The notes below the pieces were generated by a model. It ran no database searches and was not told the DNA's origin. It was given only the letters and a program-made list of their open reading frames with translations. From Candidatus Altimarinota bacterium (lineage in GTDB: Bacteria > Patescibacteriota > Gracilibacteria > BD1-5 > JAGOOR01): a DNA stretch of 34,283 nt. Made by a program: the position numbers and the translations under genes. Positions 6,481-31,043 of this stretch are shown here, piece by piece. Numbering within the stretch: the stretch's first letter is position 1; each line of letters opens with the position of its first letter. The stretch covers positions 1 through 34,283 of the forward strand of contig JALQUC010000025.1 of the NCBI GenBank assembly GCA_023268615.1, written 5' to 3'.

Positions 6481-6513
6481 CAGTATCTTTTTTCTTCCTC
6501 ACTCACGATTCTT

Positions 6514-6690
6514 TTGGTACTTTTTCTGCAAAAAGTACCCAAAAGCATTCAGGGGACACAAACTCGCTCTCCAGTTCAGCAATTTATATTCCAATATTCA
6601 TGACGCTCAGACAGTTACGATATGCCATTCAAGGCATATCTCCACCCCTAAAAACCCATTTTCTGACTTTCTTCTGGACCGACAGTTTTA
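6514..6690. repeat. Dispersed double-hairpin repeat, copy 1 (between convergent psd and carS-like gene)
   Basis: A perfect 10-bp hairpin, GGTACTTTTT (6516-6525) and AAAAAGTACC (6530-6539), is followed by CCAAAAGCATTCAGGGG, AAACTCGCT, an inner 8-bp hairpin GATATGCC/GGCATATC (6619-6640), and CCCCTAAAAACCCATTTTCTG. The same order of blocks recurs at 24403-24535. Both copies lie between 3' ends of convergent genes, so they may act as two-way terminators. No transposase is present. The element resembles widespread bacterial repeats with the GGTACTTTTT-AAAAAGTACC core; this is from memory, not a search. Confidence 0.75.
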
Positions 6691-15440: not shown

Positions 15441-15492
15441 AATTTGGAAAAATAGAGTTTTTCATATAGTACTCTCTATAACGCTTATTTCA

Positions 15493-16221
15493 ATGCCTCC
15501 TGTTTCTATTTTCTTGACTCTTCAGAACAAAAAACAGCTCACTCACGATGTGTTTGAGCTCGAGTATACTTCCTCTGAGTCTCTCCATATCACACCAGGT
15601 CAGTTTCTCCTCTGCGATACTGCAGGTGACCCAAAACTTCGTCGCTCGTACTCTGTGAGCTGGGCAGCGGGAACGAGTGTTTTTTTTATTATCAAGCGCC
15701 TTCCTGAAGGGAAAGGTGGTAGTATGGCTATCTGTGACCAGACAATAGGACATACGATGCAAGTGTGGTGACCTATGGGACGATTTATCCTCCAAGAAAA
15801 TACTTTTCCAAAGGTCTTTATTGGGACTGGTACTGGTTTTGCACCGCTCTACTTTATGCTCAAGTATTCTCTCAAAAAAATGAATAATGAAAAATGAATA
15901 ATGAATAATGGAGGAATGTTTTTTTTATTCGGGGTCAGAGAATTACGAGATGTTTTTTATCAAGAAGAGCTCCAACAATGGTCGCAAGAATCTTTCTTTG
16001 ATTATCAGATTTGTTGTTCACGCGAATCCTCATCACTCCCAGACAAACATCGTGAGTGACGGGTGACAGAATGCCTCACCCCTGAAAATATCTCAGAAAT
16101 GAATAAAACTGGAGAAACTGAATTCTATATCTGCGGGAGTCCAGCGATGGTGACAGAAGTTAGATCTATGCTCGAATTGTACGGGATTTCCAAAGAGAAA
16201 GTATTCTTTGAGCAGTATTAA
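15493..16221 (+). CDS. FNR-type flavin oxidoreductase (FAD/NAD(P)H-binding) with an in-frame repeat insert
   Basis: The 242-aa product resembles ferredoxin/flavodoxin-NADP reductases. The FAD half has LRRSYSVSW; the GPMGRF loop has its Gly from TGA 15772-15774; the nucleotide half has FIGTGTGFAPLYFML and EFYICGSPAMV. Between the first strand-helix and MFFLFGVREL sits an extra peptide, MNNEKGIMNN, encoded by a low-complexity repeat at 15879-15910 that also occurs in the mfd N-terminal gene. Three TGA codons are Gly. ATG 15493 starts just before the conserved domain; upstream in-frame ATGs at 15421-15435 would overlap the divergent CAP gene. Its TAA shares TTAA with the RNase J stop. Confidence 0.87.
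15879..15910 (+). repeat. AATGAATAATGA low-complexity repeat inside the FNR gene
   Basis: A 26-bp tract (15879-15904) is identical to 23988-24013 inside the mfd N-terminal gene. In both it is read in the same frame and yields MNNEKGIM, with its central TGA as Gly. Confidence 0.85.
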
Positions 16222-18251
16222 ATACACACCACGAGCGGCTCTCTTTCCCAGACCTTGAGCACCATTTTTCCGAGGTCTTTTGCGAGAGCGTCTTTTGCGT
16301 TTTTATCGAGAGGACTTCCGTCACTATTCTTTCATCCTTTTTTCACATAATCACTGATAGCTGCATGTGATGCTGCTATCTCATCTGGGAAGAAGAGACC
16401 ACGAGATTCGACCGTAGCATCTTTTGTATTGACGATGAGTACACCTTCTTCACCGAGTTGGATTCGTTCTTTGACTGCGCGAGTCTCGAGCGAACCAATA
16501 CTCATACCATCGACTCCGAGTGCTTCGAGAGGGATTTTTTTTCGAGAGAAGACGAGTTCGTGTCGCTCATCGAGTTCTACGATAGAACCATCTTCGAGCA
16601 TGAGGACATTTTTTGGATCCCATCCCATCTTCACCGCTTCTCGTTTGAGCGTCAGTCTCTGGGTGATATCACCGTGAACAGGGATGATGTATTTTGGTCG
16701 TACGAGATTGATGATGACTCGCTGTTCTGCGATACCACCATGACCACCTGAGTGGACTTCATTTTCTTTGATTGTGATGATTTTTGCGCCAAATCGATTG
16801 AGACGATTCATCATATCGATGATAGCGAGCTCATTACCAGGAATAATAGAAGAAGAGAGAATGATAGTATCACGGGGCTTGATAGAGATAGTCTGATGGT
16901 CTCCACGAGAGATATTATTGAGACCACCGAATTCTTCTCCTTGTGCACCAGTAGTGATGATGATTTGTTTGCTTTCCGGGATGCTCTCCATGGTCTTTGT
17001 ATCGAGAGGTTTTACTGTTCATTCCTTACACTTCAGGATGCCCATTTCACGAGCAATGGCGACACAATCAACCATGCTGCGACCATTGACGAGAACATGG
17101 CGACCGAGCTGCTCTGCTATCGTGACGACATCTTGGATACGACTAATGAGCGTTGAGAAATTACCAATAATGACTCGTTCTGGTGCATCTTGGATGAGTT
17201 GCTTGAGCTCTCCGGTGACTTTTGTTTCTGAAGTCGTCCAGTCTTGCTTGTATGAGTTTGTGGTTTCCTGGAGGAGAATATCGATACCTCGACTGGCAAT
17301 TCGTGCGTAGTTTGCTAGATCGACAGGCTTGTCTATGCGAGGGAAAAATTCGAGCTTGTAGTCACCCATGTGCATAATACGAGCTGAAGGGGTCTCGATA
17401 TAGATACCACAACTATCTGGGATGGTATGATTGACGCGGAAAAATTCGTATTTGAATATGCCAATGTTGGACATTTTGCCACTGTCTGGATTGACTGGAA
17501 AAAATTGTACTTTGTTTTTGAGACCCGCTTCCTCGAGACCTTTTTTGACCATCGCTATGGTAAATGGCGCTGCATAGATAGGGGGGAATCCGAGGGCTGG
17601 GATGAGATTTTTCAGTGCTCCAATATGGTCGAGATGGCCGTGTGTGATGAGCATTCATTTGATGCGTTTGAGGTGTGTTTGTAGGAATCGGATATCAGGC
17701 AGCAGATAATTGAACCCTGGAGAATTGCCACCTCTGGCAAATTCGAGACCACCATCGACGATGAGGATATCATCTCCATGTTCAAACATGGTCATATTTG
17801 CACCAACTGTACGCAGTCCACCAATAGGTATTATACGAGTTTGGTTTTTTTCTACTTTTGGGAGAATTTGTGGCTCGAGTGCTCTTGGGAAAATAACTGG
17901 TACATTGAGACCCTTGATGACGGCAGGTGAGAGTTGAGTTGGGGCCTCAACAGTTTGCTCTGGCGCCCGTGTTCCAGCTGGTGATGGTGGGAGTTCGAGC
18001 CGTTTCATCGGACGATTAGTCAGAGGTTTTCCTGGTACAGGTGGTCGTTTTGGTGGCAGAGGTCTACGATTTGCACCTCCGTTTGATCCATGTAATGGTC
18101 TCGGTGAGAGTGGTGTGGTAGGTTTGAGTTGAGGTTTTGGTTTTGGCGCTATTGGTGCTGGTTGCATCATCGGTGATGCTGATTCTGAAGGTGGGTTTTT
18201 GTTCACCTGTCAGAGTTCTGAGTCGAGCTCAGCAAAAAAATTATCGGACAT
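16218..18251 (-). CDS. rnj: Ribonuclease J with proline-rich N-terminal extension
   Basis: RNase J is a metallo-beta-lactamase/beta-CASP nuclease with endo- and 5'-exonuclease activity in mRNA decay and rRNA maturation. The 677-aa protein has roughly 125 N-terminal residues rich in Pro, Ser and Lys with no fold evident. The core follows: RIIPIGGLRTVGANMT, the metal site THGHLDHIG (His204, His206, Asp208, His209), HTIPDSCG, MGDYK, TTGAQGEEFGGL and PVHGDITQRL. The C-terminal domain is shortened. Four TGA codons are Gly, one just before the metal site. ATG 18251 is chosen over GTG 18206 because it lies 7 nt after a TATTCT box. Confidence 0.94.
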
Positions 18252-18290
18252 AAAAGAAAGAATAAAGATTAAAATTGATTACAAAATTGG

Positions 18291-18314
18291 GAAAAAGAGT
18301 TTTTGTTTACTCTT
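18291..18314 (-). terminator. Intrinsic terminator ahead of RNase J
   Basis: On the minus strand AAGAGT and ACTCTT pair around an A-rich loop, followed by a short T-run. It would end the transcript that covers the 48-aa ORF and the structured stem at 18316-18359. Confidence 0.55.
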
Positions 18315-18315
18315 A

Positions 18316-18359
18316 CCTCTTCGTGTTTAGAGACAACAACAATACCCTAAACGAAGAGG
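18316..18359 (-). ncRNA. Strong stem-loop in the region before RNase J
   Basis: CCTCTTCG (18316-18323) pairs with CGAAGAGG (18352-18359), and the stem continues through GTTTAG/CTAAAC with a small bulge. It sits just before the terminator at 18291-18314. It may be the 3' end of a short RNA or a regulatory element; it matches no RNA family I can name. Confidence 0.4.
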
Positions 18360-18383
18360 AGCGCATGTGTTATGGCTAGAGGA

Positions 18384-18530
18384 TTATGAGACATGAGCAT
18401 CAAAAAGATCACCGTATGAGCTTCATTGATAACCACGACTCGTATGACTGAGAATATAATATCGTATTTTATTGAGGAGTGCGAGTGTCTGAGTATTGAT
18501 TTCTTGTCTTTGTGTGTTCTGAGATAGCAT
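18384..18530 (-). CDS. Possible small protein, 48 aa
   Basis: A short frame reads MLSQNTQRQEINTQTLALLN, then an aromatic KIRYYILSHTSRGYQ segment, TGA-Gly, and SSYGDLFDAHVS before TAA. The composition is protein-like and the single TGA fits the code. A consensus TATAAT (18535-18540) stands only 4 nt before the ATG, closer than for other genes. It may be a real small protein or chance within a small RNA gene. Confidence 0.4.
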
Positions 18531-18562
18531 AGAAATTATAGATGCTTTTATCGAAAAGCAAA

Positions 18563-19618
18563 TTATTCAAATAAATTTTTACCATTTTCCCGCACCCAAG
18601 TGATACTTTTTCCTTTGCCCCAAAATGGCCATAAGAGGACATCTTCAAAGGTATGTGTTCCTGCTTGCTCGTCTCTCATTGGATTCATCGCAAGCTCAAA
18701 GTGGAGATGGTAGAGGTATTTCTTATCAGGAACTGCTGAGTCACCCACATGGCCTACTATTTCTCATTTTTTTACTTTAGTACCTATTTGTATGTTATCA
18801 GGAATATCTGATAGATGTGCATAGATGGCAACATGTCCGGAAAGAGTTTTGAGATAGACGGTATTCCCACGGTAAGTATCGAGATTTTCTTGTCGCTCTA
18901 GCTCTGTTGTTCATTTGTGTAGGTGCTCCATCTCACTCCAGGTAAAGTCTCTCTTCACATGCATAATTGTTCACTCTTCTATCGCTCTCACTGGCGTTCC
19001 CTCACTGATATAGAAGTCCCATCCATGGTGCACACCATCAGTTACGCCTGCGCGAAATGGTCGTGCAGCATTTGGGAGATGAGATTGATTGGTTGGGAGA
19101 GGGCTCTCGGGAATTGGGAGAGCAAATTTAGTATTTCTCGCTGCGAGAATGATTTCTATATCTCGAAAAAATTGTCTCAAACGGAGTGAAGAAAGGCGGT
19201 AATCATTTTTGATAATTGAGCTGGCTTTGAGTGTGTTTCTGAGCGTCTCACTTGCTACATCTGAGAGAGCTTCTCTCGGAGGGAGAGATCCGCTGATAGG
19301 CATGATATAGTTGACGCCTCGATAAGTGACAACTGGCATACGACATTTTCCTGTGAGTTTCCATCGGACTACTTTGTCACCATTTGACTCACTCATCACT
19401 GATTGTGTATCAGGACATGCCGAGGTCAGTCGGGCACCATCTGCATCATCGAGTCTCAGGAGCACTGATGCACCATCATCGAGAGGCGTGATTCACGAGA
19501 AGAGTATCTCTATTGGAGGAGCTTCTGAAGCCGCCACCAATTCTACTGTTGGTTCTGATATGAGGATGTTGGGAACTGTGATGAGCAATACCCCGACGAA
19601 CAATGAAGATCGAATCAT
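18563..19618 (-). CDS. Secreted M23-family (LytM-like) peptidase
   Basis: M23 enzymes are zinc metallopeptidases that cut peptidoglycan cross-bridges, acting outside the membrane. The 351-aa protein has an N-terminal hydrophobic signal segment (residues 5-22), a region of about 150 residues with a few Cys, and the M23 domain. Zinc-site motifs are HHGWDFYISEGTPV and HLHFEL; GHVAIYAHL and GEIVGHVGDS lie between. Four TGA codons are read as Gly, including those in AIEEGTIMH and KKGEIVGHVG, as the family requires. Start ATG 19618 gives the signal peptide. Confidence 0.92.
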
Positions 19619-19789
19619 AGATTTATGCACTTGGCAACTGTGTTTCAGTGTACAAAAAAATTATTCAAATCAAATATCAGCCATCTATTTCCGCTTGATT
19701 ATGGTTCAATCTCTCTTTTGAAATATTTTTGATTTTCTTATTTTTGTGAAGAGCTGGTGAAGAACGCTTTCAAAAACACACTTTTTTCC

Positions 19790-19795
19790 TATACT
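19790..19795 (+). promoter_or_regulatory. -10 box for the secreted SLH-like gene (with leader)
   Basis: TATACT at 19790-19795, with TTTCAA about 16 nt upstream, predicts a 5' leader of roughly 20-25 nt before ATG 19825. This differs from the leaderless genes. No Shine-Dalgarno is visible in the leader. Confidence 0.4.
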
Positions 19796-19824
19796 TTTTC
19801 TCCGATATTTCTCTCAAATTCTCT

Positions 19825-21330
19825 ATGAAAAAAATAATATTTTCTCTTCTTCTCCTGAGTTTCTCTGTTTTTGCACAGACTGATAATGGTCTGTCTGATG
19901 CTCGTGCTCTGGCTGAACAGGGAATTATTGTGAATCAATCAACTATGGCTCCTGTTGCTGGTTCTACAGTGGCACAGGATATCCAAGAAGCGACCATGTA
20001 CCGAATCTATGACACTATTATTCGCCAGGAAGTTCTGGGAATAGCACTCAAGCTCAGGGGTGTGGTATTGCCAGATTCCTATACTTGTCGTAATTACTAT
20101 CGTGATACAGCAGAGTGGTGGGTTTGTCGTGCAGCAGAATTGTCTGCAGATCAGGATATCGTCACTCGTGCCAATCTCCATTTCCGACCACGCGATACTC
20201 TCACTCTCGCAGAGGCTCTCGGTATTACTATCAAGGCTCTCAATATACCACTCTCTACGACTCCTACGAGCACTATTGCAGGTACTGAACCTGATTGGCA
20301 AAAACGACTCGTCCTCACGATAGCTGAAAATCAAATTGCTCTCAATGTACGGGATAATACTGGACGATGAATCGCACTCTATGATGCTCGACTCGGTGCG
20401 ACACTCTCTGGATTTGATATGTCACATCGATTGACTCGAGGTGAGTTTTTCCAGATTTTGACAGCCTTCCTAGATTATCGGGATAATGCTGAACCAACTG
20501 CTCACTGTACTGTCTATAATGACGGATGCAATGATTGTACTCGTGTAAATGGTGTGCCTGCTTGTACCAAGAGAGCATGTTTCTGGGAAGGGATTCCATC
20601 GTGTTCTGAGTGCGAGGCAGGCTATACACTCCAGAATAATCGTTGTGTTAAAAAACAAACTGCGTGTATAGCGGAGGGTGAATATGCTGGTGGAGGATTC
20701 GTGATGTACCCAGAGAATATGAATGATTTTCAGTGTTGTGCTGGACTCACTCGTGCCGAGAGAAAAGATGGATCAACTCTTGCCGATGCAGGATATACCT
20801 GTATCCGACAAGGAGATAATTATTGTGATACTCGATACGAGAGTAGTTATAATTCTGTTGATTGTCGTACTGATGTCGCATTTGATACTTCTGTCTGTCA
20901 GAATTATTATGATGGATGCAATAGTTGTTCTCGCACTGAGAATGGTCAGACTATTTGTACACTCCGCGCCTGCCTCGTCAATGGACCAGCGTATTGTACG
21001 ACCTACATTCCCTATGTACCAAAAACACAATCTGAGGATAGTACCTTTTTAGCAAAAGTTGTCTCAGAGATGCGTAACTATACCAAGGATCTCTCCTGTA
21101 GTATCAATGCTCAGTGTCAGTGGAGCATGGTAGGATACAAGGCATGTGGTGGTCCGAGTTCTGCTATAGCTTTCTCTACTAAAAATGTGGATACAAATCT
21201 CGTCACCAGCAAGGGTACCTATATCACCAATGCTGAGAAAAAATTTAATGAGACTTATGGTATCATGAGTGACTGTATGTTCGTCCAGCCACCAGCAGAA
21301 CTCCGTTGTATTAATGGAATTTGTCAGTAA
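19825..21330 (+). CDS. Secreted SLH-like, cysteine-rich surface protein
   Basis: The 501-aa product has a signal peptide (MKKIIFSLLLLSFSVFAQ). Residues about 25-200 resemble S-layer-homology modules (YRDTAEWWVCRAAEL and HFRPRDTLTLAEALGI patterns). Two matching Cys modules follow, at about residues 231-252 and 361-383: YNDGCNDCTRVNGVPACT and YYDGCNSCSRTENGQTICT, each ending in an RAC. Between them an EGF-like stretch reads CSECEAGYTLQNNRC. One TGA is read as Gly near residue 182. The many Cys imply disulfides outside the cell. It probably forms part of the cell surface; the partner is unknown. Confidence 0.82.
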
Positions 21331-21334
21331 GTAA

Positions 21335-23065
21335 CTACATCTCTTCTGGAAGAGGCATGCCGAGAATTTGGCAACTGAATGCTATGATTTCAAGTGCTGT
21401 TCGAATTATCTGCATACGCATATGTCGTTCGTTTTCTGGTGTGTCTTTGAGTTTTGGAGTATTCACATAGAGAGCATTGAGATGACGCGCCATTGTCGCG
21501 AGATGAGCGACCATGAGGTGAAATTTGTATGTTTCTCCACAATTTTCTAGGAGCTCGTTAAAGCTCAAAATATCCATGACGACTTCACGATCGTATACAG
21601 TCAAACTTCAAACTTCAAACTTCAAACTTCAAACAGGAGCGATTTCTGTGAGAATTTTTTTCCATCTCACATAGGTATACTGGAGGTATGGTCCACTATT
21701 TCCTTCAAATGCCAATACTTTGTCCCATTCAAAGACCCAGTCTCGCTCACGATCCTGACTGAGGAAAGAGTAGATGATAGCTCCGAGTGCCACAGATTTG
21801 GTATCTGCATCTGAGATATCTCTCTCTCGTTCCGTGAGAATTTTTTTGACCCTGTCAAAACTCTCATCAATGAGGTTCTTCAAGAATATAACTCGTCCAT
21901 GTCGTGTCGACATGGCTCCATCAGGGAGGCTCACAAATCCGTTTGCTGCATGCGTGAGCTCAGTATCTGTGTCAGTGAGCCAAGCGGATTTTGCTGTAGA
22001 AAACAGTTGGCGAAAGTGAAGTGCCTGTCGATTATCGACAAAGTAGACAATTCGACTCGGTGACCAGTTTTTGAGACGATATTTGATGGCTGCGAGATCG
22101 CTCGCGAGGTAGCCGTGTGTGCCATCTCTCTTTTGCAGAATACATGAGGGGAGCTTCGTTTCTTTTTCAAAAACAACACCCACACTGTCGTCTTCATTTT
22201 TGGTTGCGATTCATCGCTCGACGAGCTCATCGACGACGGCTGACATTGTATTATCTGGTGTGAGATCTGGCCAATTGCCGAGCTTTGGAAGGGGGAGTCA
22301 TTCATAGAAGCTCTCACCAATCCATATATCAGGATGGACTCCAAATTCGCTCATAATAGTTCGTACCCCTTCGAGACTCTTGTCTGTAAATTGTTGCCAT
22401 AATTTGACAGATGCTTCGTCACCCTCTGATAGCAGCTTGAAGGCATCGCGACATTCCTGGTCGACTGATTCTTCTTTTTCTATTTTTTCGGTAATAGCGA
22501 CATATATCTCGAGCAGATGATGAACAGGATCTCGCTCAAATGCTTCTTTATCACCAAAATATTTCCAACCAGTAATGAGCTTGCCAAATATTCCACCCCA
22601 GTCGCCCTGATGCATATCAGCGGTGACTTCATAGCCCATTGTGCGGAGGAGATTGATCGTTGCTTGTCCAAAGAGAGGTGTACAGAGGTGACCTATGTGG
22701 AGTGGCTTTCCGATATTTGCCCCCATGTAGTCGATGATGATTTTCTCATTCTTTTTTTCGTAGGTTGGGAGTTCCCAATCAGAGAGCTCGGTTGCATAAA
22801 ATGCATCTGTCACAAAGAGATTTACAAATCCGCCTTGGATATTTCCGTCCGTCACGAAACTCTCGTTTTTCATAAAACTCAGCACTTCCTCTGCGAGTTG
22901 TGGTGGAGGTGTTTTTGTTGCTTTGACCGCCGGAAATATATTGATACATATATCCCCAAATTTTCGATCTGGAGGAATCGTGAATTGGAACACATCAGCG
23001 GAACACTCTTTCTGAGCTGTTTCGAGATATTTTGTGAGAGCTTCTCGGAGGATACTGGACTGCAT
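21335..23065 (-). CDS. argS: Arginyl-tRNA synthetase with an in-frame heptamer repeat
   Basis: ArgS charges tRNA-Arg with arginine. The 576-aa class I synthetase has ANIGKPLHIGHL (HIGH at 123-126), GDWGGIFGKLI, GVVFEKE, the second signature as AMSTRHGRV, and an anticodon-binding domain from about residue 490 ending at MPLPEEM. Four TGA codons are Gly. Two of these come from a TTCAAAC tandem repeat (21601-21634) that encodes residues about 478-488 in the linker before the anticodon-binding domain. A TATACT lies about 28 nt before ATG 23065, so this mRNA may have a leader. Confidence 0.93.
21601..21634 (-). repeat. TTCAAAC heptamer tandem repeat inside argS
   Basis: Four full copies of TTCAAAC and one 6-nt partial copy run from 21601 to 21634 (plus-strand sense). 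On the coding strand they are read as V-G-S-L-K-F-E-V-G-S-L. The unit is 7 bp, so gain or loss of one copy would shift the frame. Confidence 0.95.
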
Positions 23066-23124
23066 AGTGAGGGAGATGAATTGTCTCTAGTATAGGGAAA
23101 AATATAGAGGGGCAAATAGTATTC

Positions 23125-23766
23125 CTATATTTCTTCGTCAGACAACAATAAGGAGAGCGTCTGTTTCATATAATGAACTCTTGACCGGACAGTTCCTTCA
23201 TTCAATCAAAATTTTTTCCCAATTTCCCCATGAGATATACCTGCTAAATGCATAGCAAGTATATGCTGTCTTTGTGTATCAAATCTTTGAGCTGAAAATT
23301 CTTCTACTCTCCTCAGCAGAGCCTCTCTATCTATATAATCGACAACAGTATTCATGACTGCTAATTCTCATGCCACAGAATAAGAATCTTTTCTTTCTTC
23401 GTCGAGACTTATATCGTTCACAAACTTTTTGGTTCTTTTTAAAAAATTGAGGGCTTGATTTCTCCCAATAGCACAAAGCCAAGTATAAAAACTACTATTA
23501 CCTTTGAATCGTCCAATATTCTGCCAAACCCGTAACCACACTTCTTGTTTGAGGTCTTCTAGGTCATGATGATGTGGTACCATTCTTGATAAGAATCAGT
23601 GTAGTCGAGCTGCATATTCTTCGCGAAGAATAGAAAATGCATCATGATCTTTTTCTTGAGTTTTCCTTACCAATTCTTCGATTCAATCTACTGGAGGATT
23701 GTGGACTTCTGTTTCATTTGAATCTAACGGCAATTCTATTTCTGTAGTATGTTCCGACATTTTCAT
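23125..23766 (-). CDS. ECF-type RNA polymerase sigma factor
   Basis: Sigma-70 family members of group 4 direct RNA polymerase to special promoters. The 213-aa protein has an acidic N-terminus, region 2 with HDAFSILREEY, HDLEDLKQEVWLRVWQNIGRF and FYTWLCAIGRNQALNFLKR, and region 4 with QRQHILAMHLAGISHGEIG followed by KKFGLNEGTVRSRVH. Four TGA codons are Gly; one gives the expected turn Gly in the region 4 helix-turn-helix. No anti-sigma gene is adjacent. Start ATG 23766 has a TAAAAT exactly 6 nt upstream; ATG 23760 is an alternative. Confidence 0.92.
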
Positions 23767-23772
23767 TTTATT

Positions 23773-23799
23773 ATTTTATAATAAATATCTATAAGTCAA
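23773..23799 (-). promoter_or_regulatory. Promoter, leaderless type, for the sigma factor gene
   Basis: On the minus strand TTGACT (23794-23799), a 15-nt spacer and TAAAAT (23773-23778) end 6 nt before ATG 23766. It is nearly the same as the promoter at 4232-4258 and is divergent from the mfd promoter. Confidence 0.6.
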
Positions 23800-23809
23800 A
23801 TATTTAGTG

Positions 23810-23838
23810 TTCACATTTTTCTCATCTTTCTGTATAGT
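23810..23838 (+). promoter_or_regulatory. Promoter, leaderless type, for the mfd N-terminal gene
   Basis: TTCACA (23810-23815), a 17-nt spacer and TATAGT (23833-23838) end 6 nt before ATG 23845. Confidence 0.7.
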
Positions 23839-23844
23839 CACTCT

Positions 23845-24390
23845 ATGCACCATCTCTCTGCTCCATCCCATCCTCTGATTCATGCTTTCCTTCTCCGAAG
23901 AGAAGAGTTTCAGGGTGTGGAGAGGCTCATCGTGGAGACGCAGGAACAAGGAGAGAAACTTCTGAAAGTTCTTACAGAACTTTCAATAATGAATAATGAA
24001 AAATGAATAATGACAAATGCAGGACTTTGAAAAAATTATAGACTTATCACAACAAAAACTGATGTTCTCGAAGTGATGCATGATCCTGACCTTGTTGGGA
24101 TTTTTTCAATTGAGACGCTGGATTGGGATGTCAGTGAACTCGAGAAAACTCATATTCTCAGGCTCTCCAAGGGTATGAAATATTCGGAAGAATTACTGGT
24201 CACTTGGCTCACAGATCATGGATATAGAGCTCAGAAATCAGAAGAGGAACATACATTTTTCCGTCAAGGAGATACGGTGAGTATTCAGACGAGGAAGGGG
24301 ATTCTCTTGGTCAATTTCTTCTGAAGCACGCTCGAGACACTGTATCTCGATGGAGAAGAACAAGACGAATACAAATTATTTGCCTGCTAA
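23845..24390 (+). CDS. Mfd N-terminal (UvrB-like) fragment of a split mfd
   Basis: The 181-aa product looks like the first domains of the transcription-repair coupling factor: HILRLSKGMKYSEELLVTWL, DHGYRAQKSEEEHTFFRQGD and ILLVNFFGSTLETLYLDGE follow the Mfd pattern of a UvrB-like domain whose DNA-damage partner is UvrA. It stops with TAA soon after this, leaving out about 150 residues present in E. coli Mfd. The rest of Mfd begins 3 kb downstream on the same strand. Three TGA codons are Gly. Residues about 48-57 (MNNEKGIM) come from the repeat shared with the FNR gene. It may be functional as a separate chain or a remnant. Confidence 0.72.
23988..24013 (+). repeat. AATGAATAATGA low-complexity repeat inside the mfd N-terminal gene
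   Basis: The tract is 26 bp, identical to 15879-15904 and read in the same frame, giving the same peptide MNNEKGIM. Confidence 0.85.
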
Positions 24391-24402
24391 TACATGATTC
24401 GT

Positions 24403-24535
24403 TTGGTACTTTTTATGGAAAAAGTACCCAAAACCATTCAAGGGAAAGAAACTCGCTGTAGACCAGGTTCATCTGATACCTGTATTCATCCCGCTCAAAC
24501 AGTCTTTCCCTTAAAAATCTATTTCTGTTCTTCCA
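24403..24535. repeat. Dispersed double-hairpin repeat, copy 2 (after the mfd N-terminal gene)
   Basis: A perfect 10-bp hairpin, GGTACTTTTT (24405-24414) and AAAAAGTACC (24419-24428), is followed by CCAAAACCATTC and a second hairpin, AAGGGAAAGA (24440-24449) with TCTTTCCCTT (24503-24512), that encloses AAACTCGCT and CGCTCAAACAG. The block order matches copy 1 at 6514-6690. It lies between the convergent mfd N-terminal gene and idi, at the left edge of the block that splits mfd. Confidence 0.8.
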
Positions 24536-24546
24536 TCAGTCGGAGG

Positions 24547-25086
24547 CTAGATTAGACTCTTTTCTTTCAAAATCCCAGATTTTTCGAGAATCATTGCTTC
24601 TTCGATGCACCATGGAGAATATTTATCCGTGTTATTTTTTATTTCTGTGAGAAAATTATCCCAGCTGATCCATGAGATTGCTTCGACTTCGTCGGGATTG
24701 ATGACTGGTTCGTCTTCGGTGTAGCCGATGTGAATCGGGCATATTTCGTTTTCCATCACGCCATCCTTGGTAAATTGATACCTGTACGGTGATGCTTCTT
24801 CTGCCCACACGACACTCATACCGAGCTCGTCTCTGAGTCTCCTCTTTACTGCGTCAATATTTGATTCATCGAGCCCTGGATGACCACAACAGCTATTCGA
24901 CCAGGCGAGTGGCCAGGTTTTTTTTACATGACTCCTCTGTTGGAGGAGGAGTTTCTTATCTTTGTTGAAAATAAAAATAGAAAATGCTCGGTGGAGTGGT
25001 GTCACTGCTCCGTGCACTTCTGATTTTGGCATAGTGCCGAGGATGGTATTATTTTCATCCACGAGGACGACGAGTTCTGGAGGCAT
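24547..25086 (-). CDS. idi: Isopentenyl-diphosphate delta-isomerase, type I
   Basis: Idi interconverts IPP and DMAPP, giving the allylic starter for prenyl synthases such as the one at 1660-2526. The 179-aa NUDIX-fold protein has AVTPLHRAFSIFIF, LLLQQRSHVKKTWPLAWSNS, the catalytic Cys in CCGHPG, the metal-site region AVKRRLRDELGM, and ENEICPIHIG with the catalytic Glu. There is no TGA codon. It begins 1 nt after the DUF1232 gene stop and ends the minus-strand unit that separates the two mfd pieces. Confidence 0.95.
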   Translation of the reverse strand: MPPELVVLVDENNTILGTMPKSEVHGAVTPLHRAFSIFIFNKDKKLLLQQRSHVKKTWPLAWSNSCCGHPGLDESNIDAVKRRLRDELGMSVVWAEEASPYRYQFTKDGVMENEICPIHIGYTEDEPVINPDEVEAISWISWDNFLTEIKNNTDKYSPWCIEEAMILEKSGILKEKSLI

Positions 25087-25087
25087 A

Positions 25088-25459
25088 TTATTGGACGAGT
25101 TTATAGATGCTATAGAGGAGAAATACTGCGAGGATAGTCAGGATACTCCAGAGCATCCAGTGATGCTTGTGCACCTTTTTTCCTTCTTGTTGGGCGACAT
25201 GTTTTCGTGCATCATCGAGAATGCTATTTGGTATGAAAATCCAGAGCAAGAGCGGGATAATCATGATATCATCTGTGATACCGATGAGAGGGAGCAGGTC
25301 AGGAGCTATATCGACAGGACTAGTGATATAGATAAACGCGATAAAAGCAGCCGCTATTTTAGTTGCTGTTGGTGTGCGTACATCACGAAATGCATGCCAG
25401 AGAACTTTTATTTCACTCTTTATGCTGTGAATTTTTTTGAGATTATGCAGGAGAGACAT
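25088..25459 (-). CDS. DUF1232 (YkvA-like) membrane protein
   Basis: The 123-aa product has the DUF1232 core, AAFIAFIYITSPVDIAPDLLPLIGITDD, shown here as two segments around YITSPVDIAPDLLP and IGITDD, plus a second hydrophobic helix near the C-terminus (WSILTILAVFLLYSIY). The family's function is unknown. It has no TGA codon. It lies 18 nt after the CaCA gene and directly before idi, so the three are probably co-transcribed. Confidence 0.88.
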   Translation of the reverse strand: MSLLHNLKKIHSIKSEIKVLWHAFRDVRTPTATKIAAAFIAFIYITSPVDIAPDLLPLIGITDDIMIIPLLLWIFIPNSILDDARKHVAQQEGKKVHKHHWMLWSILTILAVFLLYSIYKLVQ

Positions 25460-25477
25460 AGTTGAGAGGAGCTCTAT

Positions 25478-26431
25478 TTAGCCTCTGATGAGATAGGTGA
25501 GGTACGATGCGTAGACCATCACAAAGATGATACCTTGCCAACGCTCGAGATTGTTTCTGCGACCGACGAAGAGAGCAAAAAAGAGCAACAGAGTGGCACC
25601 AATACACATATAGATATCAGCAAAACTTGCTTCTGGTACATTGATAGGACTAATCACTGCCGAGAGTCCGAGGATCCAAAAGATATTAAAAATATTTGAA
25701 CCAACGATATTACCAACAGCGATATCGTTTTGACCCTTGCGAGCAGCGACTATAGAGGTGACAAGCTCAGGCATAGAAGTACCAATTGCGACAATCGTGA
25801 GACCGATAACTCGTTCGGACATGCCGAGAAGATGAGCCATGTCGACTGCTCCATCGACGAAGAGTTTTCCCCCTACCATGAGACCTGCGAGACCTCCACC
25901 TATCATGAGGAGAGACATAGAATTACTATATTTTTTGATCCCTGTATCAGTATTTTCTTCACTCTTACTGATGCTCGCGATATAGTAGAGAAATACTGCA
26001 AAGAAAAATAACAACACAAAACCATCTCGTTTACTAATAATATTCGTCCCTGACTGACTGAAGTACATATCAGCTCCGAGGAGACCTACGAGGACGATAG
26101 CTAATAGAGAAAATGGTATTTCTTTCCAGACTGTTGAACGACTGACTGGTATGAGACCTAGGAGACTCGTCACACCCAGAATGAGCAGGATATTTGCTGT
26201 ATTTGAACCCACGACATTACCGAGAGTGATATCACTATTGCCACGGAGGCTCGCCATGACGCTCACAGTGAGCTCAGGCAGCGAAGTACCAAATGCCACG
26301 ACGGTGAGACCGATAACGAGACTTGAGACACCAAATCGTTTGGCGATAGAAGCAGATCCCATGACGAGAAAATCTGCACCCTTGACGAGGACGGCGAGCC
26401 CGACGACGATAAAAAGAAGAGCTATAATCAT
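25478..26431 (-). CDS. Calcium/sodium antiporter (CaCA family, YrbG-like)
   Basis: The 317-aa membrane protein exchanges cations, typically Na+ or K+ against Ca2+. It has the two inverted alpha-repeats of the family: GLTVVAFGTSLPELTVSV with GNVVGSNTANILLILG, and GLTIVAIGTSMPELVTSI with GNIVGSNIFNIFWILG. About ten helices are evident. All of its roughly 34 glycines are GGN codons; none is TGA, unlike most genes in the window. A TATAAT lies exactly 6 nt before ATG 26431. Confidence 0.95.
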   Translation of the reverse strand: MIIALLFIVVGLAVLVKGADFLVMGSASIAKRFGVSSLVIGLTVVAFGTSLPELTVSVMASLRGNSDITLGNVVGSNTANILLILGVTSLLGLIPVSRSTVWKEIPFSLLAIVLVGLLGADMYFSQSGTNIISKRDGFVLLFFFAVFLYYIASISKSEENTDTGIKKYSNSMSLLMIGGGLAGLMVGGKLFVDGAVDMAHLLGMSERVIGLTIVAIGTSMPELVTSIVAARKGQNDIAVGNIVGSNIFNIFWILGLSAVISPINVPEASFADIYMCIGATLLLFFALFVGRRNNLERWQGIIFVMVYASYLTYLIRG

Positions 26432-26437
26432 GTGCCG

Positions 26438-26443
26438 ATTATA
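26438..26443 (-). promoter_or_regulatory. -10 box, leaderless type, for the CaCA antiporter gene
   Basis: A consensus TATAAT on the minus strand ends 6 nt before ATG 26431. The -35 is weak. Confidence 0.6.
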
Positions 26444-26467
26444 GCGGGGATTCTAAAAAAGAAATAC

Positions 26468-26851
26468 CTACAGTCCAAATCCTCTGATGATGAGGTAGAT
26501 ACCGATGATGACGATACCAAAGAGCGCAACAGAGAGAGCGGTATCATTTTTGTAGAATGCTATGACATTTTTTGTGACGCGTGGAAAACCTATGACGACA
26601 ACTCACTTCACGAGTGAGAGCCAACCGATGAGTGTGACAATTCCTCTCCAGTCGAGTGACCAGACATTGTGCACGAGGATACTTCCTAAACCTATCGAGA
26701 GTGACGCATACCCAGCGATGAGTATGATACCTGGTTCACTTACTACTGACTTCATGTATCCGAGTATGACCTCTCGTCGGAGGAGGAAGAGTACTCCGAG
26801 GATGAAAAAAGAAAGTCCCCAAAACTGTGCCAGAAATACTGCAGCGTTCAT
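26468..26851 (-). CDS. Small membrane protein, 127 aa
   Basis: The frame encodes four hydrophobic helices (residues about 5-23, 40-60, 66-85 and 106-122) joined by short charged loops such as LLRREVILGY. One TGA (26603-26605) is read as Gly in LVKGVVVIGFP. I recognise no family. It lies 36 nt upstream of the CaCA gene on the same strand. A TATTAT box sits exactly 6 nt before ATG 26851. Confidence 0.8.
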
Positions 26852-26857
26852 AGGAAA

Positions 26858-26863
26858 ATAATA
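26858..26863 (-). promoter_or_regulatory. -10 box, leaderless type, for the 127-aa membrane protein gene
   Basis: On the minus strand TATTAT ends 6 nt before ATG 26851. No clear -35 is seen. Confidence 0.5.
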
Positions 26864-26915
26864 AGGAAATAAAGGCAGGGAGATTATACTGATTTTTCTC
26901 TGATATAAAATACTG

Positions 26916-27374
26916 CTAGTTTACTCATGCAAGACAATCTCAGATCATTAGTAATGAGAAAGGTTCTCCAAATAAGTTGTACTGTTTAGTTAGAGTCATA
27001 ATATTTTTGTCTCTAAAAAGAGTAAAGACATTTAAATTTCACACATCAGTTTCTTCTAATAAGTATATAAAACTTCAATTATCTATTTTCATCAAGTCTG
27101 ATTGGTCTCAGTTATTTCATATTATTACTGGGGATTCTGTATTCAAATTTCCAAAACTTAATTTCATGGGATTCTTATCTACTTGAGACAGCATTTCTAA
27201 ATTACCCTCATTAACTTCGCCAACAGTTGAGATTTGTAAAGTACAGACCACGCTATTTGAAAAAGGAGGTTTAGATTCAATATAATTTTCATTTAATTTT
27301 AATTTTACGGAATTTGTATTTGTGCACCCCGCTAGAAACAATGCTAATAAAGGTAAAATGAGTATTTTTTTCAT
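26916..27374 (-). CDS. Putative lipoprotein, 152 aa
   Basis: The product begins MKKILILPLLALFLAGCTN: a short signal peptide with the lipobox LAGC, so signal peptidase II cleavage and a lipid anchor on Cys17 are expected. The mature part matches no family I know. Six TGA codons are read as Gly, all in the second half; without them the protein would end at residue 85. The gene is more AT-rich, with more AAT, TTA and AAA codons than its neighbours, which may mark a different origin. A TAAGTT lies 6 nt before the ATG. It is divergent from the mfd C-terminal gene. Confidence 0.78.
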
Positions 27375-27431
27375 AGTTTTAACTTACTTGCTTTCTATTG
27401 TATCCAAGATACTATCCTCTGCAAACGATTC

Positions 27432-29948
27432 ATGACAAATAAACACCCACAATCCCTCGCCCTTGGTCTCGATTTCGCACCTGATTTTGAGAGGATTCGT
27501 CGTGAGCATAGTCCTATAGAGGTGAATCAGATAGTTGATCCGACGCATCCGCCTGCGGGGATAGGGTATGTCGAGTGCGATACGCTTTCGGAGCTGGTGG
27601 AGTTCTTACATGACTTCCAAGATAAAAAAGAAAAGAGAAAAGAGAAAAAATGAGGAATCGTTGTTTTGACGAAACAGACGCCTGTGATGGAGAAGTTTTG
27701 TGTGGATAATGATATCGAAGCAGAGATTTATGCGTGGAAGTTAGGTTGACCATCATTTATTTTAAAAGGACAAAGTACAAAAGGCAAAAAGCAAAATGAA
27801 GGAATTGGTCATCGCGAGGACGACGCAGGAGGACGCGGCGATCCATGAGACAGTAATGGATTGCTTCGCGATGCTCGCAATGACGGGGACATCTGTGTTA
27901 TTACAGACGAGCTTATCTGACCACTTCTGGGTGGAGTGTTCCGACGGAAAAAGAGACCACAATTGGATTTGCTGGTTCAGATAAAGGTAGGTGACCCTGT
28001 TGTCCATCTCTTTCATGGAGTGGGGATTTTCCAGGGCATCGTCCGAAATGCTTTGTCATGAACGGAGCGCGAATATATCGAGATAGAATACGCGGAGGGG
28101 GACAGACTCTTCGTACCAGTGGAGGAGCTTCATCGTGTGTCGAAATTCGTTGGAGAGACGACACCGACACTCACTCGACTCGGTTCTCCGACATGGAAAC
28201 ACATACTCGCGAAGACCAATGAAGAGATTCAAAAAATTGCTGAAGAACTCCTCGCAAATCATGCTGCTCGTCGGATGGCTGGCGGTGTATCGATGATGGA
28301 TTTCCCGGAAAAAGAAGAAACTTTTCATATCGCATTTCCGCACAAGCATACGCTCGATCAAGAAGAGGCGATTCATGGTATCATGCAGGATATGAGTAGT
28401 GAAAAACCGATGGACAGACTGCTCTCGGGAGATGTCGGATTTGGAAAAACGGAAGTCTCACTCCATGCGGTGTATCGAGCATTTCTCAATGAAAAACAGA
28501 CGATATTTCTCGCACCGCTCGTGGTTCTTGCTTACGAGCACTATGAGTCTATTCGTGAACGACTCAAACCGTTTGGAGTGAATGTGGCGATGATGACCCG
28601 TATGAGCACAACCAAGGAGATCAATGCAGTATTGAAATGATTGAAAGACGGCTCGATTCATTGTGTTATCGGGACGCACAGACTTCTCTCACCGGATATC
28701 AAATTTCGGAATTTATGACTGGTTGTCGTCGATGAAGAACACAAATTCGGTGTGTCAGATAAGGAAAAAATCATGCATCTCAAGGCTGGTGTCGATACCC
28801 TCGCACTCTCTGCAACTCCTATTCCTCGCTCACTCAATCTCGCCCTCTCCGGTGTGAAAAATTTCTCAATATTATCTACTCCACCACACGGCAAAAAGCC
28901 CATTCATACGGCAGTCGCTCGCTACGATCAGACTATCGTGAAGCGTGCAATTGAGGAAGAGTTGGCTCGTGGTGGTAAAGTATTCTTCGTCCACAACACC
29001 ATCAAGACACTCCCTATTCTCAAAAAAGAAATCGAGTCACTCGTTCCCAAGGCAAAAGTCGTCATCACCAACGGACAGCTCCCGTCTGATGAACTCGAAG
29101 ACCGCATCATGGAATTCAAGCTCGGTATGCACAATGTCCTCCTCACGACGACGGTGATAGAGAATGGAATCAACTTCCTCGATACAAACACCATCATCAT
29201 CGATGAAGCTGAAGATTTCGGACTTGCACAGCTGCACCAGCTTCGATGAAGAGTAGGGCGATGACAGATTCAGGGGATTTGTTATCTCATGTATCGACAG
29301 CCCGAGCTTCAGGATGAGGCACGAGAGAGACTCATGACTATCGCCAATCATACACATCTCGGTGCAGGATTTGAGATAGCGCTTCGCGATATGGAAATCC
29401 GTGGTGTTGGTGATGTGCTTGGCGTCCGACAGTCAGGGAAGACGCGAGATGTGGGTGTGAGTTTTTACCTGAAACTTCTCGAACAAAAAATCGAAGAACT
29501 GCAATCCTGAAAAAAAGAAATGAAAGTGGATACCACGATTGATCTGCCTATCAGTGCGTATATTCCTGATGAGGCATTTAGCTCTGACATCGAGAAGATT
29601 CACTTTTATCGAGAACTCGAATCAGTTCGCAGCGAAGATGAACTCATGGAAGTCATCGAGCCACTCAAGACGCGTATTGATGTAAAACAGTCTGCTGTAG
29701 ACCACCTTTTTTTGCTTATTCGCGCTCGACTTCGATTATCATCTCTCGGTATTCGTCGTGTCCATATGCAACTCGGCAAATACACGCTCGAATGGGGTGG
29801 TGAAGGAGAAAAAACACTCGAAGCGATGAAAGAACTCCTGAAGAAAGATACCAAACAGTGTGCTGAGGTTATGTCAGGGAAAAAGATTTGCTACTCTCGG
29901 AAGGCATTTCAGAATCACGGGGATTTTTTGCGGTATTTTGTGAGCTAG
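27432..29948 (+). CDS. mfd: Mfd (transcription-repair coupling factor), large C-terminal part
   Basis: Mfd releases RNA polymerase stalled at DNA damage and recruits UvrA. This 838-aa part has a short D3-like region (GIVVLTKQTPVMEKF), the RNA polymerase-interacting domain from about residue 183 (VGDPVVHLFHGVGIFQG, RLFVPVEELHRVSKFVG), and the SF2 translocase with Walker A GDVGFGKTEVS near 333, DEEH at 434-437, SATPIPRSLN and QLRGRVGRG. The C-terminal D7 domain ends at YFVS. Ten TGA codons are Gly, including those in QLRGRVGRG. Residues about 126-153 come from a palindromic repeat. It has its own promoter-like TTGCTT-16-TACTAT upstream. Confidence 0.93.
27807..27885 (+). repeat. Palindromic repeat element inserted in frame in mfd
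   Basis: The outer arms GTCATCGCGAG and CTCGCAATGAC match as an inverted repeat at 10 of 11 positions. The inner arms GCGATCCAT and ATGGATTGC match at 8 of 9. This layout is that of the well-known bacterial repeat with GTCATTGCGAG and CAATCCATGG-like arms. Here it is translated as part of Mfd (HREDDAGGRGDPG, then DSNGLLRDARNDG), with a TGA read as Gly. Confidence 0.85.
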
Positions 29949-30241
29949 AGAGTCTCAATTATCTGCTTCATTCTCTCCTGATAGAGAGTATAGAGAGGAT
30001 GTTTCTTATCGAGTTTTTTTCTGCTAACTCGTTCGTAGTTTCTTTTTAGTCGTTGAAGCGCTGCAACTGTAGTCATTCTCTGTATTTCTGATTCTAATGC
30101 TTTTTCATAGTCGATTTGAGCCGTTTCTCCTCGCATGATTTGATCGACTCTATTAGGAATGGCCTCACCTCAAAATCACCCTATTTCTTTAAAGTTATCC
30201 ATTATTTTCTGAAATTCTCTTTCCAAAAGTGAAGTACTCAT
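29945..30241 (-). CDS. Hypothetical protein, 98 aa
   Basis: This is a soluble, helix-rich small protein with Arg/Lys/Glu-rich heptads in the second half (ALQRLKRNYERVSRKKLDKK). Two TGA codons near residue 22 give IGGFGGEA. I know no family. It has a full promoter with the -10 exactly 6 nt before ATG 30241. Its TAG shares CTAG with the mfd stop on the other strand. Confidence 0.75.
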
Positions 30242-30247
30242 ATTAGA

Positions 30248-30275
30248 ATTATAAATTATAATTACTTATTTGCAA
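30248..30275 (-). promoter_or_regulatory. Promoter, leaderless type, for the 98-aa gene
   Basis: TTGCAA (30270-30275), a 16-nt spacer and TATAAT (30248-30253), both read on the minus strand, end 6 nt before ATG 30241. Confidence 0.7.
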
Positions 30276-30278
30276 TAC

Positions 30279-31043
30279 CTACTTCAGTAATTCCTCAAAG
30301 CTCTCCACGCTTCTCTCGGCGAGTTCGATGCAAGCCTTTTCTGGTCGACAGAATCGGTGGTAATAGATACCTCGTGCTCCGCACTGGCTCGCACCAGTGA
30401 GTCCTGGGAGTCCGTCTTCTATAACGAGACAGTCTGTGATAGGGATTTCGAGCATCTCTGCACACTTGAGCCAGACTTCTGGATCAGGTTTGTGGTTGGT
30501 GAGCATATTTGCTCCGATAATGGTGTATTCAACCTCCTTTTTGAAGGAGGTGCCCGAGTCTAGCGAGGGCGGAGGATTTGTTTTTCAATAAATCCCCCTT
30601 TCTTCATTCTGATTTTTCTCTCCTCCTTCAAGAAGAGAGTTTTTGAGGAAGTATTTCTCCAATTGCAGGAGTTGTACGACCCATTCGATGCGACTGGTTC
30701 CAGAATTTGACCCAATGGCTATTTTTTTATCACAGTTTTTGCAATATTCGAGAAATGGTATGAGGCTCGGATCTGATTCGAGTCATGCTTCAAAGAGAGC
30801 CTTTTGTGTCTCCCATATATGTGCATGGATAGCAGTGGGGTCGAGTTCGATGCTGTATTTTTCCTTGAGAATGGCAGAGAGTTGTACGAGTGATTTCGTT
30901 CCCCATTTTCACGACTCAAATTCATCTTCATCGAGAGGGAGATTGTTTTTCTGAAACAATTGTATGAGTGAGTGCTTCACAATACCGAGCGTATGAGCTA
31001 TCACGCCATCAAAATCAAAGAGGACCGCTCTAAAATCTTTCAT
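30279..31043 (-). CDS. HAD-family phosphatase with an in-frame repeat insert
   Basis: This HAD hydrolase of the beta-phosphoglucomutase/phosphatase type probably acts on a small phosphorylated metabolite. The 254-aa protein has motif I FDFDGVIAHT (Asp10 nucleophile, Asp12 acid), motif II AIGSNSGT, the motif III region KPDPEVWL and motif IV IEDGLPGLTGA. Between LEKYF and IIGANM, where relatives have a few residues, there are about 40 extra residues rich in Gly, Asn and Pro, encoded by a palindromic repeat. Three TGA codons are Gly, one inside the insert. It begins 1 nt after the 84-aa membrane protein gene. Confidence 0.87.
30531..30640 (-). repeat. Composite palindromic repeat inside the HAD gene
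   Basis: Three neighbouring inverted repeats are visible: CCTCCTT with AAGGAGG (30533-30550); GGAGGATTT with AAATCCCCC around GTTTTTCAAT; and CTCTCCTCCTTC with GAAGAGAG. A GCCCGAG-to-GAGGGC stretch lies between the first two. The layout is like dispersed repeats found between genes in many bacteria, yet here it is read through as protein with one TGA as Gly. Confidence 0.75.

Follow-up and report, generated by a model that had tools for sequence, protein, structure and literature searches.

The DNA analysed here (the window) is the entire 34,283-nucleotide contig JALQUC010000025.1 (C41) of a gracilibacterial genome of 966 kb (Candidatus Altimarinota bacterium; G000), read with code 25 (Gracilibacteria type), in which UGA is established to encode glycine. 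Several of its conserved genes contain short in-frame arrays of 7-bp units (heptamer arrays), and comparison of such arrays, above all those of the AATGAAN family, between code-25 genomes and genomes with the standard code (code 11) indicates that reading UGA as Gly broadens the choice of repeat strand that is open to uptake by genes.

AATGAAN arrays were collected from a code-25 set consisting of G000, G001 (same genus, argS 80% identical) and f2. Genes contained 39 of the 65 arrays, 36 in sense and 3 in antisense orientation, versus 7 sense and 12 antisense copies between co-directional genes (Fisher P = 1.6e-5). Every one of the 36 sense copies reads TGA as Gly, typically as M-N-N-E-K-G-I-M-N-N, and 33 of them share one phase (A ATG AAN AAT GAA NAA TGA ANA ATG AAN AAT G). 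At the variable base in codon position 1 (NAA), where T gives TAA, T was found in 0/37 cases, versus 55/101 at the other variable codon positions (P = 1e-10) and 59/91 in non-genic copies; TAA is strictly avoided in genic copies and selection is therefore active. The hydrophilic strand of AATGAAN has TGA in every frame once the array is at least 21 bp long, and the antisense strand is stop-free in all frames; hydropathy was −1.2 for MNNEKGIMNNGG versus +1.5 for FIIHYSLFIIHY. Of the three antisense genic copies, the one in G160 provides a start resembling a signal peptide, and the other two fall in an open reading frame (ORF) with weak support. The same pattern was seen in four code-25 families (f1, f2, f3 and f13), the single loci of f3 and f13 also being read in sense, e.g. 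as KMKNEEGK within a frame of 362 amino acids (aa). When all array families of G000 are taken together, 29 of 56 genic arrays are read through a TGA-bearing frame, and only 69 of 269 open frames carry TGA (P = 3e-5).

An earlier note, made from the letters of the window alone, had listed five inserts, each in frame and with at least one TGA; a base-by-base reading confirmed this for all five with code 25. Treatment of the five as one family was rejected, as three are period-7 arrays and two (27807-27885 and 30531-30640) are palindrome-type elements. The three arrays (FNR, argS and mfd N-part) consist of 29–35 bp of 7-bp units by Tandem Repeats Finder, and two further arrays in the mfd C-part (27619-27648 and ~27766-27797) were added to the list. 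The arrays of the window are as follows.

15876..15910, plus strand: heptamer array AATGAAT/AATGAAA, 32–35 bp, in the FNR-type oxidoreductase gene (15481-16221), read as KMNNEKGIMNNGG, with TGA=Gly at 15895-15897 and the 3′ tail GGAGGA.
21601..21634, minus strand: heptamer array AGTTTGA ×4.9 in argS (21335-23065, minus), read as VGSLKFEVGSLT, with two TGA=Gly at 21631-21629 and 21610-21608.
23985..24019, plus strand: heptamer array in the mfd N-part (23845-24390), read as IMNNEKGIMTN, with TGA=Gly at 24004-24006.
27619..27648, plus strand: heptamer array of the AAGAGAA family in the mfd C-part (27432-29948), read as DKKEKRKEKK and followed by TGA=Gly at 27651-27653.
~27766..27797, plus strand: degenerate heptamer array of nnnnCAA units in the mfd C-part, read as GQSTKGKKQN, directly 5′ of a palindromic element.

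The loop or linker location proposed for the inserts is supported for the argS and FNR arrays by AlphaFold models, which place both in predicted coil. The FNR array lies in frame inside a Pfam NAD_binding_1 match and is modelled as coil after helix 113-132, with a mean predicted local distance difference test score (pLDDT) of 66 versus 90 overall. The argS array (residues 478-488) falls in a loop of the DALR domain region and is modelled as coil between two helices; the sole argS segment with pLDDT <50 lies inside the array, and the model resembles solved ArgRS structures.

Alignment of the inserts to homologues, suggested earlier for fixing their boundaries, gave a clean insertion only for the HAD-type hydrolase gene, whose 40-aa insert (a palindrome, described below) is cleanly absent from G001. 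The argS loop is of equal length in G000 and G001, and G001 is without the repeat. FNR of G000 is longer than that of G001 by 3 aa, and one of two G001 paralogues carries at this loop a heptamer array of a different unit, TTTGTCC, while the second has none; mfd-N of G000 is longer by 7 aa, and the mfd-C loop holds an AATGAAG array in G001 versus a CAAA array and a palindrome in G000. In-frame TGA within argS was found across the order, and the argS loop of distant relatives has unrelated repeats (a HPEQSEGS...LDSSAKPQND element in G067, L057; GLPQGKPLQCDSSDAPCGCND in G073, L074). The argS loop is thus a recurrent insertion site, and such loops are used repeatedly.

For the genome-wide analysis the joined sequence of G000 (959 kb) was subjected to a simple codon-usage gene caller, which gave 870 genes and 85% coding sequence, and heptamer arrays were scored at ≥70% lag-7 identity. 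This yielded 102 period-7 arrays, 56 inside genes, 40 intergenic and 6 at gene edges. At a stricter setting, used for comparing periods, 49 arrays of period 7 were found versus 0–2 for each of the periods 5, 6 and 8–13, and the pattern (AATGANN)3AATG had 54 matches versus 0 for the reversed control pattern; from these control matches and the near-absence of other periods, the array pattern is not due to chance. Four families were distinguished in G000 (AATGAAN, AAACTNN, nnCAAA and AAGAGAA), alternating 14-bp units occur among the arrays, and DNA fold computation gave no secondary structure for them. Host genes, named by our reading of Pfam matches, are conserved enzymes (zwf, gnd, metK, fmt, mnmA, miaA, uvrC, recG, metG, rsmG and argS) in which the Pfam domain is usually aligned across the array; further hosts are trmB, rsmB/F and RecA (array in the C-terminal tail), and in folD, uvrA and mfd the arrays lie between Pfam domains.

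Genic arrays might instead have arisen where they now lie, by slippage or by local duplication of a short seed within a variable loop, without ever having been inserted and with family likeness due to AT-rich composition; this would agree with the unchanged length of the argS loop, the mere 3 aa added in FNR and the 14-bp units. It is nonetheless an unlikely account, although the best placed of the three alternatives considered: lengths in G000 are mostly 29–35 bp with a peak at 32–33 bp (about 4.5 units) and none >40 bp, unlike slippage products, period 7 alone is numerous, and genic and intergenic copies have an identical 3′ tail, nnGGA(T/A)TTTT, outside the repeat. This tail is common to three of the four families (28/39 AATGA arrays, P = 2e-20; 14/16 AAGA; about half of CAAA; background 10%), the AAACT family being without it. 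Slippage microsatellites as the origin of the arrays were rejected on fixed length and single period. The near-fixed length of 29–35 bp holds whichever heptamer is repeated, and other genera are similar.

Use of UGA as a sense codon was confirmed by the coding fraction, which was 0.84 with code 25 versus 0.42 with code 11 for G001 and 0.83 versus 0.15 for f2; this is the same code as in SR1/BD1-5 Gracilibacteria (e.g. PMC4032931). Relatives were read in regions picked for holding an array (G071, G096 and the remainder of G293 and G001 being outside the coverage), and the statistics treat genomes that share ancestry as independent. AATGAAN arrays were genic in 39/65 cases in code 25 versus 8/32 in code-11 f7 relatives (P = 0.001), and in other code-11 bacteria of many phyla 5/66 lay within an ORF of at least 200 aa, all antisense (P = 7e-11 versus 39/65). 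Among the code-11 genera, g150 had 0/18 AATGAAN arrays inside a gene and g115 had 8/12, four antisense (FILHSSFFILH) and four sense; the four sense copies have TTA where code 25 has TGA and are read as KLRMKNEELRM. Over all heptamer families the genic fraction was 55% (G000) and 47% (f2) in code 25; of the two code-11 genera compared, one had 18% and g115 had 63% (15/24).

Loss of UGA as a stop had been proposed in the earlier note to widen the set of repeats that a gene can absorb and to make the genome tolerant of protein-coding repeats. The first part appears to hold for AATGAAN, with its 36:3 bias to sense, TGA in 36/36 sense copies and TTA in g115; broader tolerance, in the sense that code-25 genes would hold more repeats overall, found no support, the genic fraction not following the code because TGA-free families and antisense copies enter code-11 genes too. 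The AAACT family, which includes the argS array, can in addition be read as a hydrophilic peptide without TGA (NSKLKTQN) and has no need of recoding.

Several points weigh against the proposed role of recoding. With 63% of its arrays genic, g115 demonstrates that recoding is not required for absorption; that code-11 genes lack TGA in frame follows in part from the definition of the code, and the informative evidence is TTA replacement, strand choice and occupancy. The code-11 side consists of few genera, with regions chosen for arrays and genomes that are not independent. The unit mix differs between genic copies, where AATGACG is common, and intergenic copies, where AATTAAN is common, which may make a single pool doubtful. 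Boundaries are clean against the relative only for HAD, and heptamer arrays stand in place of loop sequence and are not mere additions to it.

That recoding is irrelevant, with relaxed selection in a reduced gracilibacterial genome and TGA merely an ordinary Gly codon, accords with the absorption of heptamer arrays in g115 and with TGA making up 15% of the Gly codons of G000, but is improbable in view of the TGA-bearing strand being used in 36/39 genic copies though the antisense strand is stop-free in every frame, of TTA at the TGA site in same-strand code-11 copies and of the strict avoidance of TAA. Least probable is a sense orientation arising from orientation-biased insertion (e.g. linked to transcription or replication) without peptide selection, which would fit the single register of 33/36 sense copies, beyond what stop avoidance requires, and which is countered by the opposite tendency of copies flanked by co-directional genes (4 sense and 9 antisense in G000 alone) and by antisense AAGA and CAAA arrays at signal-peptide-like N-termini.

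The best explanation is probably a dispersed heptamer class of near-fixed length that passes a protein-level filter, with UGA=Gly opening the sense strand of AATGAAN. Arrays of ~32 bp and 4.5 units, dispersed between and inside genes, would enter genes or be converted into them, and the shared 3′ tail together with the fixed length suggests spread by copying. Judging by the orientation of the arrays, their phase and the letters chosen, genes would retain only arrays whose translation suits the site, with hydrophilic readings going to surface loops of enzymes and hydrophobic readings to signal-peptide-like N-termini. Under the standard code the hydrophilic AATGAAN strand is closed to genes except where TGA has mutated (TTA in g115); with UGA=Gly it is open, and genes need to avoid only TAA. 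UGA reassignment would have switched the codable strand and the unit variants, and would neither have created the repeats nor raised general tolerance. Arrays, frame, strand, phase, letter choice, the difference between the codes and the loop position in two proteins were directly observed; selection as the filter, and translation of the arrays in the cell, are what these sequences suggest.

We lean slightly towards the wider claim that the code change turned a genome-wide class of repeats, selfish or structural, into coding matter: with UGA=Gly the hydrophilic strand of a cosmopolitan heptamer would have become available, giving recurrent surface loops in essential enzymes, with the opposite strand supplying signal-peptide cores and the standard code forcing TTA variants or antisense copies. 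The consequences of reassigning a codon are usually looked for in tRNAs, in release factors and in codon use; in this case a one-base mark of the code, TGA versus TTA at the same repeat place, would show in the repeats that a proteome takes up, and it becomes a countable question whether the genetic code controls the amount of repeat DNA becoming protein. The arrays would naturally supply new loops and N-termini resembling signal peptides, and for gene finders, array-bearing genes in such genomes appear broken only under the wrong code. No link between recoding and intragenic repeats was reported in the open-access papers found.

Three known systems were compared. Heptamer direct repeats with the unit TAACTGA, mostly intergenic, occur in Beggiatoaceae, Cyanobacteria and Bacteroidetes (MacGregor 2015, PMC4679880), where under code 11 forward copies terminate the gene and reverse copies alone lie within ORFs, mostly at protein edges (PMC4679880). 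The arrays of G000 resemble them as dispersed 7-bp direct repeats with few units, several heptamer types and a placement governed by one-strand stops, and belong to the class of dispersed tandem 7-bp repeats by their number (102) and the near-absence of other periods. The TAACTGA unit just upstream of start codons was not found, the families being others; 56/102 arrays are genic, conserved enzymes are translated through the stop-bearing strand in mid-protein, and the near-fixed length with a GGA tail differs as well. Rickettsia palindromic elements (Ogata et al. 2000, reviewed in PMC10969869) are palindromes of ~150 bp, found under the standard code in housekeeping genes of unrelated kinds, where they keep the frame and seem to be accommodated by the protein structure. 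Their in-frame placement in genes for conserved proteins is shared, and the mfd-C and HAD palindromes behave similarly, although at 79 and 110 bp they are set apart by size from a ~150-bp palindrome encoding a conserved peptide; most inserts here are, by contrast, ~32-bp unstructured heptamer arrays, and the main family is readable only with UGA=Gly. Amino-acid tandem repeats of Borgs lie in and between ORFs, about half within, and add disordered peptide (Schoelmerich 2023, PMC9879509); nucleotide tandem repeats in and between ORFs are common to both, whereas Borg units within ORFs have lengths divisible by three (PMC9879509) and the unit here is 7 bp with a near-fixed array length.

Seven purine-antisense arrays in G000 form, by inspection, the hydrophobic core of signal-peptide-like N-termini, e.g. 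MKKFLLFSLFCFLFSLSGAYA, MKSTKILLFALCSLLFAFNAVFA and MKKTRLFLPFAFCLLPFFLNAC, of which the third has a lipobox-like end (LNAC). Arrays at such N-termini include antisense copies from the AAGA and CAAA families, and in several cases part of the MKK start is encoded by the array's tail. The caller scored two of the seven as intergenic, having placed the start downstream, and enrichment of arrays at N-termini as such was not significant in G000 (P = 0.12). These pyrimidine-strand arrays (MKK...A; G000 loci L014, L016, L020, L051 and L088), and one in G160, are located as follows.

G000 C11:3166-3200
G000 C13:2118-2150
G000 C17:7329-7360
G000 C17:14906-14936
G000 C17:15730-15767
G000 C17:46927-46959
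G000 C21:83356-83387
G160 L223:10001-10034, signal-peptide-like N-terminus

The two palindromic elements of the window are as follows.

27807..27885, plus strand: 79-bp palindrome in the mfd C-part, right arm ATTGCTTCGCGATGCTCGCAATGAC, with TGA=Gly at 27846-27848 and a DNA fold z of −1.85.
30531..30640, minus strand: 110-bp palindrome in the HAD-type hydrolase gene (30279-31043, minus), giving the 40-aa insert that includes LLEGGEKNQNEERGIYGKTNPPPSLDSGTSFKKE, with TGA=Gly at 30587-30585 and a DNA fold z of −3.61.

Arm copies of the mfd-C palindrome sit intergenically at C38, C11 and C20, and the element is not present in G001; a literature text search with the palindrome sequence returned unrelated papers only. 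A single TGA per palindrome is unremarkable because of the share of TGA among Gly codons genome-wide, and these inserts carry no evidence for or against the recoding idea.

The arrays were also compared with MITE/REP elements, which have terminal inverted repeats and target-site duplications and are mobilised by a transposase. Inverted array pairs made up 4 of 14 close pairs in G000 and 12 of 17, at most 36 bp apart, in the code-11 genus g150 (G293 and G282, loci L193-L204); an inverted-pair (hairpin) element as the basic unit is thus true for g150 and was rejected for G000. The g150 loci have GC-richer heptamer families, e.g. CCAAGTG/TTGGAAC and GCGTTGC/AACGCGT. Y1_Tnp matches above cut-off were found in 7/12 array-bearing genomes versus 0/9 others tested. 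As mobiliser, the Y1 transposase is unproven, G001, G171 and G160 being without Y1_Tnp and the sole G000 copy having no adjoining heptamer array, as is reverse transcriptase, RVT_1 being absent from G000.

Mfd (transcription-repair coupling factor) is split in the window, its N-part (23845-24390) and C-part (27432-29948) lying 3 kb apart with opposite-strand genes between them; Mfd of G001 is likewise in two parts, on different contigs. Another dispersed repeat of ~80–150 bp, a hairpin GGTACTTTTT..AAAAAGTACC, occurs in the window at 6490-6656 and 24379-24503, at C14:651-1100 of G000 and in about ten further places, one copy lying 3′ of mfd-N at the split and another 3′ of the single Y1 transposase gene of G000.

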